A stretch of 64,000 nt of DNA from Arthrobacter ruber. GTDB lineage: Bacteria; Actinomycetota; Actinomycetes; Actinomycetales; Micrococcaceae. Position numbers and translations under genes: made by a program. Location: the NCBI RefSeq assembly GCF_002954225.1, contig NZ_PPTH01000016.1:191114-255113 (forward strand), written 5' to 3'. Position 1 is the stretch's first letter; the number at the start of each line of letters is the position of its first letter. Under the pieces are notes generated by a model that saw only the letters and a list, made by a program, of their open reading frames with translations, was not told the origin of the DNA and searched no databases. Positions 36,624 to 40,775 of this stretch are shown here, one piece after another.

Positions 36624-38552
36624 TCAGGCGAACGCCCGGCCCGCGTGCCCGTCCGACGCCGCACCGGCCCGCACGTCGAGGAGCGGGGCGAAGAAGGCGG
36701 CGAGGCCCGCGGTGTCGTCGACGGGCAGCACGTGCGCCACGTACTGGTCGGGGCGGACGACGACGACGGCGCCGGCGCGGTCGATGCCGCGCAGGTCGAA
36801 GATGTCCGCGGAGGGGTCCGCGGCGTACACCTTCTCGTAATCGGTGAGTCCGAAAGGCCCGGTGGCCGGCTTGAACTCCGGAGGGACCCGCCCGATGTCC
36901 ACCCGTGTGTGGTCCTGCTGGTAGACCACCTTGACGTCGAACCAGGCGTCGCGGTCCGCGCCCTCCGGTGTCGCGGCGAGCGGCGAGTCCGGGGAACTCC
37001 CCACCCATGCGGCGAGATCAGCCACCTTCGCCGCCGCACCCGGCTCGGCGGGGTCGGCGAAGACGTAGATGCGCCAGCGTCCGTCCGCCGTCGCGTGGTG
37101 CCCGAGGTGCATCGGGACGCCGTCGCACACCCGCACCACCGGCGCCGACTTGAAGCGTTTTCCGATCGGGAATCCCGTGGCGAGGTCCTGGTGCGCGGGC
37201 TCCGCGACGAGGAGGGAGGGCGCGTACTGGGTCCGGAAGCCCGCCGGGAACTCGGCGGTGCTGACGTAGAAGTCCTCGAGCTCGGACGGGTCGGCGAAGT
37301 CCTCGGGCTTGCGCGCCATGAGCGCGGACCACTCCTTGTCGAACTCGATGAGGTCCTTCGCGACCACCTGACGCTCGGCGGAGTACGTGGCGAGCAGGGC
37401 CTCGGGGCTGCGCCCCTCGAGCACGTGCCCGAGTTTCCAGCCGAGGTTGAAGCCGTCCTGCATGGAGACGTTCATGCCCTGGCCAGCCTTCGCGCTGTGC
37501 GTGTGGCAGGCGTCGCCGGTGATGAAGACCCGCGGCGTGCGGGTGCCCGCCTCCTCCGGCAGGACGTCGTCGAACCTGTCGGTCAGGCGGTGGCCCACCT
37601 CGTACACGCTGTGCCAGGCGACGTTGCGCACGTCGAGGGTGTAGGGGCTGAGGATGGTGTTGGCCTTCGCGATGATCTGCTCGATCGTGGTGCTGCGGAT
37701 GGCACCCTTGGTCGCCGGGTCCACCTCGCCGAGGTCCACGTACATGCGGAACAAGTGCCCGCCCTCGCGCGGGATGAGGAGGATGCTGCCGCCGGAGCCC
37801 GACTGGATGGCACACTTGCGGCGGATGTCGGGGAAGTCGGTCACGGCGACGGCGTCCATGACGCCCCACGCGTGGTTGGCCTGGTCCCCGGCGAGGCTGC
37901 AGCCGATGGCCTGGCGGACCCTGCTGCGGGCGCCGTCGGCCCCCACCACGTACCTGGCCCGGACCGTGCGCTCCTCGCCCTCGCGTTCCCCCGCGGTGTG
38001 CACCAGGGTGACCGTGACCGGGTACTCCGGGGCGTCGTCGACCTCCAGCCCGGCGAACTCGAAGCCGTAGTCGGGCTCCATGCGCGTGGGCGCGTTCCGC
38101 ATGAATTCGGCGAAGTAGTCGAGGACGCGCGCCTGGTTGACGATCAGGTGGGGGAACTCGCTGATGCCGGTCTCGTCGTCCTCCGGGCGGGCCGTGCGGA
38201 TGATGCGGGAGGGGTCCGCCGGATCCGGCTTCCAGAAGGCCATCTCGACGATCCGGTAGGCCTCGTCGGTGATGCGCTGGGCGAAGCCGAACGCCTGGAA
38301 GGTCTCGACGCTGCGGGCCTGGATGCCGTCGGCCTGGCCGATGGCGAGCCTGCCCGGGCGCCGTTCCACGATCCGCGTGGTGATGCCGGGGAACTGCGAG
38401 AGCTGTGCGGCGGTGATCATGCCGGCGGGGCCGGTGCCGATGATCAGGACGTCGACCTCGTCGGGCAGCTCCTGGGGGCGGTCGAGACCGACCCCGGCTG
38501 CAGGCCGGACCCGGGGGTCACCCGAGACGTAACCGTGGTGGTGGAATTGCAC
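36624..38552 (-). CDS. FAD-dependent aromatic hydroxylase (phenol/3-hydroxybenzoate monooxygenase type)
   Basis: A 642-residue class A flavoprotein monooxygenase. The FAD Rossmann motif is VDVLIIGTGPAGMITAAQL. The DG motif is VVGADGARSRVRQ. The GD motif is FITGDACHTHSAKAGQGMN. The C-terminal thioredoxin-like domain (about 470-640) is the one of phenol hydroxylase and MobA 3-hydroxybenzoate 4-hydroxylase. It should ortho-hydroxylate a phenolic acid with NAD(P)H and O2. The start is GTG 38552 (MQFHHHGYVSGDPRV), preceded by GAGGA; a GTG four codons earlier lacks a site. A perfect palindrome lies 35 bases upstream. The true substrate is not certain. Confidence 0.88.
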   Translation of the reverse strand: MQFHHHGYVSGDPRVRPAAGVGLDRPQELPDEVDVLIIGTGPAGMITAAQLSQFPGITTRIVERRPGRLAIGQADGIQARSVETFQAFGFAQRITDEAYRIVEMAFWKPDPADPSRIIRTARPEDDETGISEFPHLIVNQARVLDYFAEFMRNAPTRMEPDYGFEFAGLEVDDAPEYPVTVTLVHTAGEREGEERTVRARYVVGADGARSRVRQAIGCSLAGDQANHAWGVMDAVAVTDFPDIRRKCAIQSGSGGSILLIPREGGHLFRMYVDLGEVDPATKGAIRSTTIEQIIAKANTILSPYTLDVRNVAWHSVYEVGHRLTDRFDDVLPEEAGTRTPRVFITGDACHTHSAKAGQGMNVSMQDGFNLGWKLGHVLEGRSPEALLATYSAERQVVAKDLIEFDKEWSALMARKPEDFADPSELEDFYVSTAEFPAGFRTQYAPSLLVAEPAHQDLATGFPIGKRFKSAPVVRVCDGVPMHLGHHATADGRWRIYVFADPAEPGAAAKVADLAAWVGSSPDSPLAATPEGADRDAWFDVKVVYQQDHTRVDIGRVPPEFKPATGPFGLTDYEKVYAADPSADIFDLRGIDRAGAVVVVRPDQYVAHVLPVDDTAGLAAFFAPLLDVRAGAASDGHAGRAFA

Positions 38553-38586
38553 GGGCTTCCTCACTTCGTCGTGGTCGTGCCGCTAC

Positions 38587-38613
38587 CGCTGTGTTCGATA
38601 ATCGAACACAGCG
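38587..38613 (-). promoter_or_regulatory. 27-base perfect palindrome, likely IclR operator
   Basis: Thirteen-base arms (CGCTGTGTTCGAT and its complement) flank a single central A at 38600. The inner part GTTCGATAATCGAAC matches the 15-base site known for PcaR/PobR-type IclR regulators. It lies 35 bases before the hydroxylase start, so the IclR protein of the same operon is the obvious ligand. Confidence 0.78.
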
Positions 38614-38786
38614 TTCTACTATCGTGACGCTGATGCTAGCCGGGGAGGACCCGGGACTCAAGGGTGCGGGTCCTGCACAGAACCTGCCGTTATCCTTCGC
38701 GCCACTGCCCGGCCCCGTCGACGGCCGTGGGGGATGATGGGAGGACCCCGACTCCACTCCTGATGATCGGGGCGTTCCGGGCGACC

Positions 38787-38868
38787 GCCCGGAAGCAAAG
38801 GCAAACCCGGTGCGAACCGGGGACGCAAAGCCACGGGACCCTCCGGGTCAGCCGGGCTACCGAATCCG
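38787..38868 (+). promoter_or_regulatory. Cyclic-di-GMP riboswitch (GEMM-I)
   Basis: The conserved GEMM-I core is present in order. GGCAAACC is followed by stem CCCGG/CCGGG closed by a GCGA GNRA tetraloop (38806-38821). Next is the tetraloop receptor GGACGCAAAGCC. A third stem GACCC-TCC-GGGTC precedes GCCGGGCTACCGA. P1 can form between CGGA (38790-38793) and TCCG (38865-38868). The P1 3' strand ends one base before the GAAGG ribosome site (38870-38874) of the secreted glycosidase gene. This spacing suggests translational control by c-di-GMP; the sign of the effect cannot be read from sequence alone. Confidence 0.87.
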
Positions 38869-38882
38869 TGAAGGCGTCAATC

Positions 38883-40166
38883 ATGGTCTCCCCCCTGCCC
38901 GTGTCCCTGTCCCTGTCCCTGTCCCGACCATCGTCAGCAGTCCCAGCCACGGCGGACCGGCACTCCGTCCTGCGCGTCCTCCTGCTGATCTGCGGTGTCA
39001 TCCTCTTCTCGGCAGGCGGTCCTCCCGCCGCGCAGGCTGCCGCGTCCATCAGCCTCAGCAGTACGACGGGACCGACGGGAACATCCGTGACCATCAACGG
39101 AGCGGGATTCCCGAAGAACACCAAGGGCTCGATCACGGACGGAGCAACAACCACCGCGATCAGCACCAACGGAAAGGGCTCCTTCCTGTCCTCGGTCGTC
39201 ATCTCACCCGGGCCCTCCGTCGTCACGATCACCGCGACCGCAGGTTCTGCATCGGCGTCGTCCGTGTTCACGGTCACCGCCCCCGCACCGACGCAGGATC
39301 CGGAGATGCGGGCGAAGGACATCAGGTTCGGTATCGGCACCAACGGTGGACCGGCAGCGGGAGCGGAGATCGATGAGGTGACGGCCCTCGCCGGAGAGGC
39401 ACCCTCCCTGGTGCTGTCGTACAAGGATTTCAACCAGGCCCCGCCCCTCGCCGAACTGGATGCCGCCCGGGCCCGGGGCGCACAGACCCTGCTGACCTGG
39501 GAGCCATGGTCCTGGGGAGGTGGCACCGACCAGCCTGCCTACTCCCTCGACCGCATCGCGGCCGGTGACTTCGACGCCTACCTCCGCCAGTGGGGGTCCG
39601 CCCTGGGGCAGTGGGGCCAGCCGGTGTACCTGCGCTTCGGACACGAGATGAACGGGGACTGGTACCCGTGGGCCGAAGGAGTCAACGGCAACGGTGCCGG
39701 CGACTACATCGCCGCGTACCGTCACGTCCACGACGTCGTCGCCTCGACCGGCGCTTCCAACATCCGCTGGGTGTGGAACCCGAACGTCCCCTACTGGGGT
39801 TCCACACCCCTTCCGGAGCTGTACCCGGGCGGCGACTACGTCGACGTCGCGGCACTCGACGGCTACAACTGGGGTACCTCGCAGACGTGGAGTGCCTGGC
39901 AGGAACCGCAGGCCCTGTTCGGGGAAGGATTGTCGCAGGTGAGGTTCCTCGCACCCGGCAAGCCGGTCATGATCGCCGAGACCGCGTCCTCGGAGGTCGG
40001 GGGGTCGAAGGCGGCATGGAATACCCGCCTCTTCGACTACCTCTCGGCGCAACCCGACGTCATGGCCGTGATCTGGTTCCACATCGACAAGGAAGCCGAC
40101 TGGCGTATCAACAGCAGCGACGCCTCGGCCGACGCTTTCAGGACGGCTCTGGCCAACCGGCGCTAG
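38883..40166 (+). CDS. Secreted GH26-like glycosidase with IPT/TIG-like domain
   Basis: A 427-residue exported protein. The signal region (1-53) is long and has a Ser-Leu repeat before the hydrophobic core VLRVLLLICGVILFSAGG. An Ig-like IPT/TIG domain spans about 54-132. The catalytic barrel follows, with acid/base Glu255 in RFGHEMNGDWYPW and nucleophile Glu366 in VMIAETASSEVGG, as in GH26 mannanases and related endo-glycanases. It may cut mannan or the cell's own exopolysaccharide. It is controlled by a cyclic-di-GMP riboswitch directly upstream, which fits a role in biofilm matrix turnover. A decayed homologue lies convergent downstream. Confidence 0.85.
   Translation: MVSPLPVSLSLSLSRPSSAVPATADRHSVLRVLLLICGVILFSAGGPPAAQAAASISLSSTTGPTGTSVTINGAGFPKNTKGSITDGATTTAISTNGKGSFLSSVVISPGPSVVTITATAGSASASSVFTVTAPAPTQDPEMRAKDIRFGIGTNGGPAAGAEIDEVTALAGEAPSLVLSYKDFNQAPPLAELDAARARGAQTLLTWEPWSWGGGTDQPAYSLDRIAAGDFDAYLRQWGSALGQWGQPVYLRFGHEMNGDWYPWAEGVNGNGAGDYIAAYRHVHDVVASTGASNIRWVWNPNVPYWGSTPLPELYPGGDYVDVAALDGYNWGTSQTWSAWQEPQALFGEGLSQVRFLAPGKPVMIAETASSEVGGSKAAWNTRLFDYLSAQPDVMAVIWFHIDKEADWRINSSDASADAFRTALANRR
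38902..38925 (+). repeat. Hexamer tandem repeat (TGTCCC)x4 in signal-peptide region
   Basis: Four exact copies of TGTCCC encode Ser-Leu pairs at residues 8-14 of the glycosidase. Because the unit is six bases, slippage would change signal-peptide length in steps of two residues without breaking the frame. Confidence 0.85.
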
Positions 40167-40214: not shown

Positions 40215-40775
40215 CTGGTCTACGCCAGAGCCCCCCACAGGTCGGAGGCTCCCCGGCGAAGCGATACCAGTCGGGGAGCGCCGGGGTGAATTCGGACCGT
40301 GTGGCCGCATCCTCCACCGCCGCCCAGTCCTCGGAGTGGAAGACCTGGTCCCACCAGGCGCGTTTGATGTTCAGGGGTTGGTGCTGCCCCAGTGGTAGAG
40401 GGACATGCCCATCCAGTCGACGGCGTCGTCCCGCGGGTAATAGGGCGCGTAGGGATCGTCATCGGACGTCAGGACTCCGTCACCGGTGACGTCCAGGTCG
40501 GAGAACCGTGCCGCGCCGGGCAGCGCTTCGTGCGCACCGCCGGCGAAGGGGAAGTCCGCGAAGGTGACGGCCACTGCAGGGTGCCGGCCCAGCTCCTCTG
40601 CATACTGGGCGAGAGTCTCCCGACCCCACTCCAGGTTCACACCCATCAGCGTCCCGTCAGCCGGGGCAGGCCTGCTCCCGTCGGGAAGCTCACAGGGAGA
40701 CGCGGCGGCGTTCAGATTGCAGGCCGACAGGGAGAGGAGGAGCGCAGGAAGCATCCGCCTGACACGTGGGACCAC
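40215..40775 (-). pseudogene. Decayed GH26-like lipoprotein gene
   Basis: The open part (40371-40775) starts with a lipoprotein-like signal (MLPALLLSLSAC) and reads GVNLEWGRETLAQYAEELGRHPAVAVTFADFPF, a typical N terminus of glycanase-like proteins. It then jumps directly to GGAHEALPGAARFSDLDVTGDGVL, DDPYAPYYPRDDAVDWMGMSLYHWG and stops. In another frame the C-terminal words continue as NIKRAWWDQVFHSEDWAAVEDAA and FTPALPDWYRFAGEP down to about 40215. The catalytic Glu segments are missing. This indicates an internal in-frame deletion plus a second deletion or frameshift. The domain order is from memory of related proteins. Confidence 0.7.

Follow-up and report, generated by a model that had tools for sequence, protein, structure and literature searches.

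Arthrobacter ruber carries, on the forward strand of contig NZ_PPTH01000016.1, a riboswitch-type leader followed by the gene of a secreted GH26 enzyme. The window referred to throughout is the whole 64,000-nucleotide stretch of this contig that was analyzed. The leader and gene comprise the following features (window positions).

38733..38738, + strand: GATGAT, a possible -10 box for transcription of the GH26 gene, judged by eye alone from a GGACAATGG-like block shared upstream by GH26 and GH16-like leaders
38777..38792, + strand: hairpin P0, CCGGGC-GACC-GCCCGG, directly 5' of the aptamer and overlapping the 5' side of P1; 6 pairs, -11.6 kcal/mol; covariation
38790..38865, + strand: c-di-GMP-I class aptamer (RF01051, 65.4 bits; RF03167, 62.9 bits)
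38793..38794, + strand: AA, facing G38862 and C38861 without pairing in the alignment; 5' side of the inner two P1 pairs
38800, + strand: equivalent of ligand contact G20; G in 48/48 genus sequences
38806..38821, + strand: P2 hairpin with a GCGA (GNRA) tetraloop at 38812-38815, from the Rfam alignment
38826..38827, + strand: equivalents of ligand contacts C46 (48/48 in the genus) and A47 (47/48)
38830..38857, + strand: helix P3, which aligns to the model with its conserved internal region
38860, + strand: equivalent of ligand contact C92; C in 48/48 genus sequences
38871..38874, + strand: Shine-Dalgarno-like AAGG, 8 nt before the ATG at 38883
38883..40166, + strand: secreted GH26 lichenase-like enzyme, 427 aa (Pfam GH26; CtLic26A E 5.5e-50; fold match TM 0.89 on the target)
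39045..39275, + strand: predicted Ig-like beta-sandwich, residues 55-131 (structure model; sub-threshold TIG match)
39645..39647, + strand: E255 of an HE motif, likely the acid/base; invariant among 14 aligned relatives and aligned with CtLic26A
39978..39980, + strand: E366, likely nucleophile, invariant in 14 aligned relatives and aligned with CtLic26A

Between the riboswitch and a divergent gene of the FAD/phenol-hydroxylase type lies an inverted repeat, CTGTGTTCGAT-A-ATCGAACACAG (38589-38611). An IclR-type regulator gene stands downstream of the divergent gene, so an operator at this repeat is possible. Adjoining the GH26 gene, positions 40371-40775 of the minus strand hold a 134-aa open reading frame with a signal-like start and, by eye, a GH26-like stretch (VDWMGMSLYHWG); it has no match in Pfam and is possibly a GH26-like remnant.

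The downstream gene encodes a lichenase-like enzyme

The reading frame at 38883-40166 matches Pfam GH26 with 35.1 bits (E 1.3e-8, cut-off 20.2), and its nearest named GH26 relative, from Arthrobacter sp. B0490, is 84% identical. The closest solved relatives are chains of CtLic26A, the GH26 lichenase of Clostridium thermocellum (2bv9, 2vi0), aligned over residues 181-423. The structure model of the enzyme (mean pLDDT 76.2) matches CtLic26A chains with TM scores of 0.86-0.89 on the target and 34-35% identity among the best six matches (34% to 2vi0), and both catalytic glutamates are aligned. Unlike CtLic26A, the window enzyme has an extra beta-sandwich at its N-terminus, and its lichenase-like activity is predicted. 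Residues 51-130 form a block with pLDDT of 83-95, and because residues 55-131 are modelled as a confident beta-sandwich, an Ig-like domain is likely there. The earlier note had described an exported glycanase with an IPT/TIG domain; the glycanase stands, whereas the IPT/TIG match falls below the Pfam cut-off (10.8 versus 20.9 bits, E 0.5), although the modelled sandwich is consistent with it. Sequence and model together suggest that the enzyme probably cuts beta-glucans. Its substrate could be the cell's own matrix, and a plant or lichen glucan is equally possible for a lichenase-like enzyme.

The leader holds a c-di-GMP-I class aptamer with canonical contact bases

An Rfam scan of the whole 64-kb window returned two matches at gathering level, one to a tRNA and the other to a forward-strand riboswitch (38791-38865). 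The scan keeps one family per clan, here RF03167 (c-di-GMP-I-GGC), whose gathering score of 59 is exceeded with 62.9 bits (E 1.8e-12). RF01051 (c-di-GMP-I), searched alone in the window's genome, matches 38790-38864 well above its cut-off (65.4 versus 35 bits, E 2.0e-12), a score toward the upper end of the genus list; both families were absent from all 14 control genomes. By sequence homology the element is confirmed as a member of the c-di-GMP-I (GEMM-I) class, and the GEMM-I core proposed for it holds. Core sequence, P2 GNRA loop, P3 and the bases G20, C46, A47 and C92 are like those of RF01051 (Vc2, Vc1). Of the tertiary interaction previously proposed, the GNRA loop is present, whereas the contact with a tetraloop receptor is presumed from the match to the Rfam model.

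We placed the contact-base numbering on the window through the Vc2 sequence, and we take the "GGC" in the name of RF03167 to denote the bases at positions 20, 47 and 92. In published descriptions, the ligand contacts of Vc2 are G20, A47 and C92, C46 and A47 are among the binding bases, and a G20A mutant binds cGAMP. The window has A at 38827, where the RF03167 consensus has G, and G at 38800, where the cGAMP-type switch (GEMM-Ib) has A. A47 is likewise found in all 30 loci fetched for RF03167 matches across the phylum (29 by script, 1 by eye). Since these loci read A47, the RF03167 label is uninformative on the ligand in this phylum, and we ruled out the GGC label as a sign of another ligand. 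Given that the contact bases are canonical, c-di-GMP is the likeliest ligand despite that label. Class and probable ligand therefore agree with what had been proposed: RF01051 is well over its cut-off, the contacts are canonical and the genome encodes 6 GGDEF and 6 EAL matches. Conserved contact bases are no guarantee of tight binding, for Vc1 is reported to keep them although its affinity for c-di-GMP is far below that of Vc2.

Both forms coexist in one genome (G016): L138 (C37), with G47 and thus "GGC"-like, is followed by a response-regulator gene, and L026 (C1), with A47, by a GH26 gene. In L138, moreover, one P1 pair is broken and P0 spans 8 bp. Standing ahead of two members of the same regulon, these copies could serve as a natural experiment on whether ligand choice depends on the "GGC" change.

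Helix P1 is broken in the window

Each of the two inner P1 pairs is formed in 46 of the 48 genus sequences. L138 and L140 lack one each, and the window is the sole copy without both, with A.C and A.G in the place of pairs. Because P1 in the register of the family was tested and does not form here, we file the window element as a variant homologous to the RF01051 class rather than as a standard member. P1 covariation is not clear in the genus (42 of 500 shuffles are as high), and the RNAalifold prediction for the genus leaders lacks P1 while it contains the inner pairs of P0. A 4-bp P1 could form in the window between CGGA (38790-93) and UCCG (38865-68), in a clash with P0. We rejected it as a conserved helix, its column pairs forming in 10, 6, 38 and 18 of the 48 sequences. 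For a P1 that ends just before the ribosome site, as described in the earlier note, this unconserved helix was the only candidate found, and that description is not upheld.

A covarying hairpin precedes the aptamer in this lineage

P0 is paired in 86.1% of cells over 48 relatives. Its covariation reaches 0.428 against 0.224 in shuffles that leave the kinship of the sequences in place (0 of 500 as high), and at most 0.154 when the helix is slid along the alignment. Cells altered on both sides number 31 against 11.7 in shuffles, a count that 32 of 500 shuffles reached, and RNAalifold yields the three inner pairs unprompted. When a fixed ungapped register is imposed, P0 pairs in 83.3% of the genus cells, against 41.7% of those from 30 distantly related actinobacterial members. 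The complete set of four inner pairs is present in 35 of the 48 genus sequences and in none of the 30. Marking P0 by hairpin energy alone was tried and dropped, as energy separates the genus from others poorly: the median z is -0.93 in 48 genus leaders and -0.25 in 32 of 33 others, and a predicted 3' arm that reaches the P1 side occurs in 46 of 48 genus leaders, yet also in 23 of 32 others. Since energy does not single P0 out, the case for it rests on covariation and fixed register. On this comparative evidence P0 appears to be a lineage-specific covarying hairpin, newly described here. Unlike Vc2 and Vc1 of RF01051, the window copy combines broken inner P1 pairs with a 5' hairpin that its lineage conserves.

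The 3' arm of P0 overlaps the outer 5' strand of P1, and in L018 and L138 it spans that strand entirely; in many members before response regulators the inner P1 pairs fall outside P0. The hairpin is kept where P1 is lost, as in the window, and where the aptamer has decayed. In Arthrobacter agilis DSM 20550 (L047, 5855-5968, before a GH26 relative) the same 16-nt P0 is still present, and the aptamer scores 36.2 bits with the genus model and has no Rfam match up to E 1. This locus represents a natural loss of the switch with P0 unchanged.

The switch precedes glucanase-type genes and a response regulator

The genome has three RF01051 matches, before the GH26 gene, the gene of a secreted GH16-like protein and a response regulator (Response_reg and Trans_reg_C). 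In the genus, RF01051 finds 48 switches in 32 of 38 genomes, each locus forming one row of the alignment. The downstream gene encodes a response regulator in 22, a GH26 enzyme in 18, a GH16-like protein in 6 and a GH5 enzyme, by Pfam, in 1; these four classes account for 47 of the 48, the remaining gene (L033) being masked by N. Pfam searches of chosen frames assign families to two of seven near the response-regulator copy and to eight of ten near the GH16 copy, none pointing to a matrix operon.

The GH16-like protein has no match in Pfam or PDB sequence searches and a weak match to BglS alone in NCBIfam (E 0.022). All six copies carry E[IVM]DLCE, and a low-confidence model (mean pLDDT 52.9) resembles GH16 folds, with beta-1,3(4)-glucanases best and lectins and alginate lyases also found. 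That two unrelated lichenase-type families stand under one kind of switch suggests, from sequence, a mixed-linkage or similar beta-glucan as the target of the regulon. Sinorhizobium meliloti is reported to synthesize such a glucan in response to c-di-GMP (PMC5567048).

In a sample of the family, RF03167 (E <= 0.001) matches 25 of 295 genomes, 19 of these in the window's genus. Outside the genus, a switch precedes a GH26 relative in G113 (L206) and an RF03167 match precedes a GH16-like relative in G046 (L209); the other five of the seven family-level loci there have no regulon class downstream. Of 80 loci encoding GH26 relatives, 15 carry the switch according to the genus covariance model, the decayed A. 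agilis copy included; 14 of these records bear the name Arthrobacter, and the other (L053) that of Vibrio cholerae. The best genus-model match in the remaining 65 loci is 16 bits (E 0.13). The distribution looks like a gain of the switch within one lineage.

Record L053 (WNZI01000001.1), titled Vibrio cholerae 35D, holds a GH26 gene of the Arthrobacter type preceded by its switch (114.8 bits) and is probably mislabelled. Among distant Actinomycetota, RF03167-type elements occur in 157 of 396 genomes (E <= 0.001), up to 11 per genome; among the phylum matches listed, four (G000, G046, G437 and G678) lie in the window's own class.

The genus encodes GGDEF proteins and lacks PilZ matches

None of the six GGDEF matches of the genome falls within the window, in agreement with the earlier observation that no diguanylate cyclase is encoded there. 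Four of the six GGDEF proteins have GG[DE]EF and two SGDEF or AGDEF. GGDEF is found in 38 of 38 genus genomes and PilZ in none of the 38, while 5 of 14 control genomes were positive for PilZ. The riboswitches are candidates for a main c-di-GMP output in the genus. A GT2 search of the genome, which is without PilZ, gave nine matches. One of them, an 860-aa frame (G000:C8:300362-301036), is partly like the cellulose synthase CelA, with 66.3 bits against a cut-off of 699.1, and is not diagnostic.

Spacing to the start codon points to translational control

In all 48 genus members an ATG lies 15-23 nt past the aptamer (model position 77), before genes that are unrelated. The distance was taken to the first ATG 6-42 nt after that position, with a second ATG 7 nt on in L034 and L035; in shuffled leaders the first ATG falls at 15-23 nt in 8.5%. 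The plus strand of 38540-38900 holds no terminator-like site. Together, the fixed spacing in the sequences and the lack of such a site point to control at the first initiation site, that is, to translational control. The translational control proposed in the note is supported in this indirect way, by spacing and terminator search, whereas the geometry of P1 and ribosome site offered for it does not hold. In 20 of 22 response-regulator leaders the ATG opens a short reading frame whose stop overlaps a possible start of the regulator; in the remaining two this ATG is the start of the regulator itself. The short frames (for example L002 1594-1705) resemble translational coupling, and many of their peptides begin with MPRT.

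Mean predicted openness of the ribosome site in the free, core and core-plus-P1 states is 0.47, 0.39 and 0.35 for GH26 (15 of 18 leaders), 0.40, 0.51 and 0.44 for GH16-like (6 of 6) and 0.41, 0.48 and 0.43 for response-regulator leaders (18 of 22). Over these 39 of 48 leaders there is no consistent change between states.

A sigma-70 promoter scan of 38540-38900 found none. By eye, the GGACAATGG-like block seems common to GH26 and GH16-like leaders, upstream of the P0 region. At position -35 relative to the GGC core, 18 of 22 response-regulator leaders have a TAnn[AT]T box, which is not found near P0 in the GH leaders; with the box in this position, the response-regulator RNAs would start at or near P0.

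Discussion

The best explanation of the locus as a whole, to which we assign a probability of about 0.5, is a c-di-GMP-I aptamer leader in which competition between P0 and P1 sets initiation of the lichenase-like GH26 gene. c-di-GMP would bind the P2/P3 pocket and stabilize P1, or its replacement in the window, beside the ribosome site. Because the 3' arm of P0 overlaps the 5' strand of P1, P0 could take up that strand, such that the two helices compete for it, and the outcome would determine initiation at a start codon that lies some 20 nt further on. High c-di-GMP would tip the balance to P1 next to the ribosome site, and initiation would be lowered. Against this explanation stand the two broken inner P1 pairs of the window, a P1 that lacks clear covariation and is not predicted by RNAalifold, openness values without a consistent direction, and the persistence of P0 in A. 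agilis DSM 20550 without a working aptamer.

As to direction, we lean modestly toward a gene that is off at high c-di-GMP, since the end of P1 is near the ribosome site and since secreted beta-glucanases fit a low-c-di-GMP state of release or foraging. A study of Xanthomonas, in which mannanase transcription is lower when c-di-GMP is higher (PMC3528676), argues in the same direction, as does the fit of a secreted glucanase to matrix release or foraging; both are analogies. That the switch instead turns the gene on at high c-di-GMP is quite possible, if short of an even chance. Folding gives no consistent direction, and Vc1, a class-I switch before gbpA, is reported to exert positive control (PMC4744006). 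Like Vc1, the window switch stands before a gene for a secreted carbohydrate-active protein; what Vc1 regulates positively is GbpA, a binding protein, which differs from the window case.

P0 may also be a stabilizer rather than a switching partner, either as a hairpin capping the 5' end or through stacking on a short P1, a reading that we regard as tenable though not the probable one. The box that would start the RNA at or near P0 in 18 of 22 response-regulator leaders favors it, as do the survival of P0 beyond the aptamer in A. agilis and the inner P1 pairs that lie outside P0 in many response-regulator members. However, the GH classes have no such box near P0, and a hairpin that covers the whole 5' strand of P1, as in L018 and L138, speaks against it.

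A serious alternative for the window, though a less likely one, is that its copy is a weakened or dying switch whose P1 cannot close properly, leaving the GH26 gene near-constitutive while most relatives still switch. The window copy may indeed be impaired, because its P1 is broken and because A. agilis DSM 20550 has, ahead of this gene, a decayed counterpart that scores with the genus model alone. It stands alone among the 48 in lacking both inner pairs, its near relative L140 lacks one, and its P0 is a strong 6-bp hairpin. On the other hand, core, contact bases, P2 and P3 are intact, the RF01051 score is high for the genus, and an alternative 4-bp P1 is possible.

Control by transcription elongation or RNA stability in place of translation is improbable; Rho-dependent ends or RNase sites would be invisible to the present analysis, but the forward strand of 38540-38900 holds no terminator-like site and the spacing to the start codon is kept before unrelated genes. 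A ligand other than c-di-GMP, that of an orphan "GGC" variant or cGAMP, is very improbable, for although RF03167 is the family kept by the window scan, RF01051 scores above it, the window has A47 and not G47 and G20 and not the A20 of the cGAMP change (G20A), and the 30 fetched RF03167 loci of the phylum also have A47.

We return to competition between P0 and P1 as the preferred reading. In its widest form, this lineage would have a form of c-di-GMP-I with a 5' switching partner, in which P0 and P1 exchange a strand and drive translation of a regulon in PilZ-free bacteria, the regulon consisting of two unrelated lichenase-type glucanases and, via a coupled leader reading frame, a response regulator. 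We consider this extended form distinctly doubtful. A search of the open literature found no paper on a c-di-GMP riboswitch with Arthrobacter and, among the matches listed, no report of a GH26, GH16-like and response-regulator regulon.

The locus offers a concrete, testable c-di-GMP output for Arthrobacter-type soil actinobacteria, in which all 38 genus genomes have GGDEF and none has PilZ, and it belongs to a small coherent regulon of beta-glucanase-type enzymes and one response regulator. Should P0 indeed compete with P1, this well-studied riboswitch class would gain an expression platform located 5' of the aptamer.
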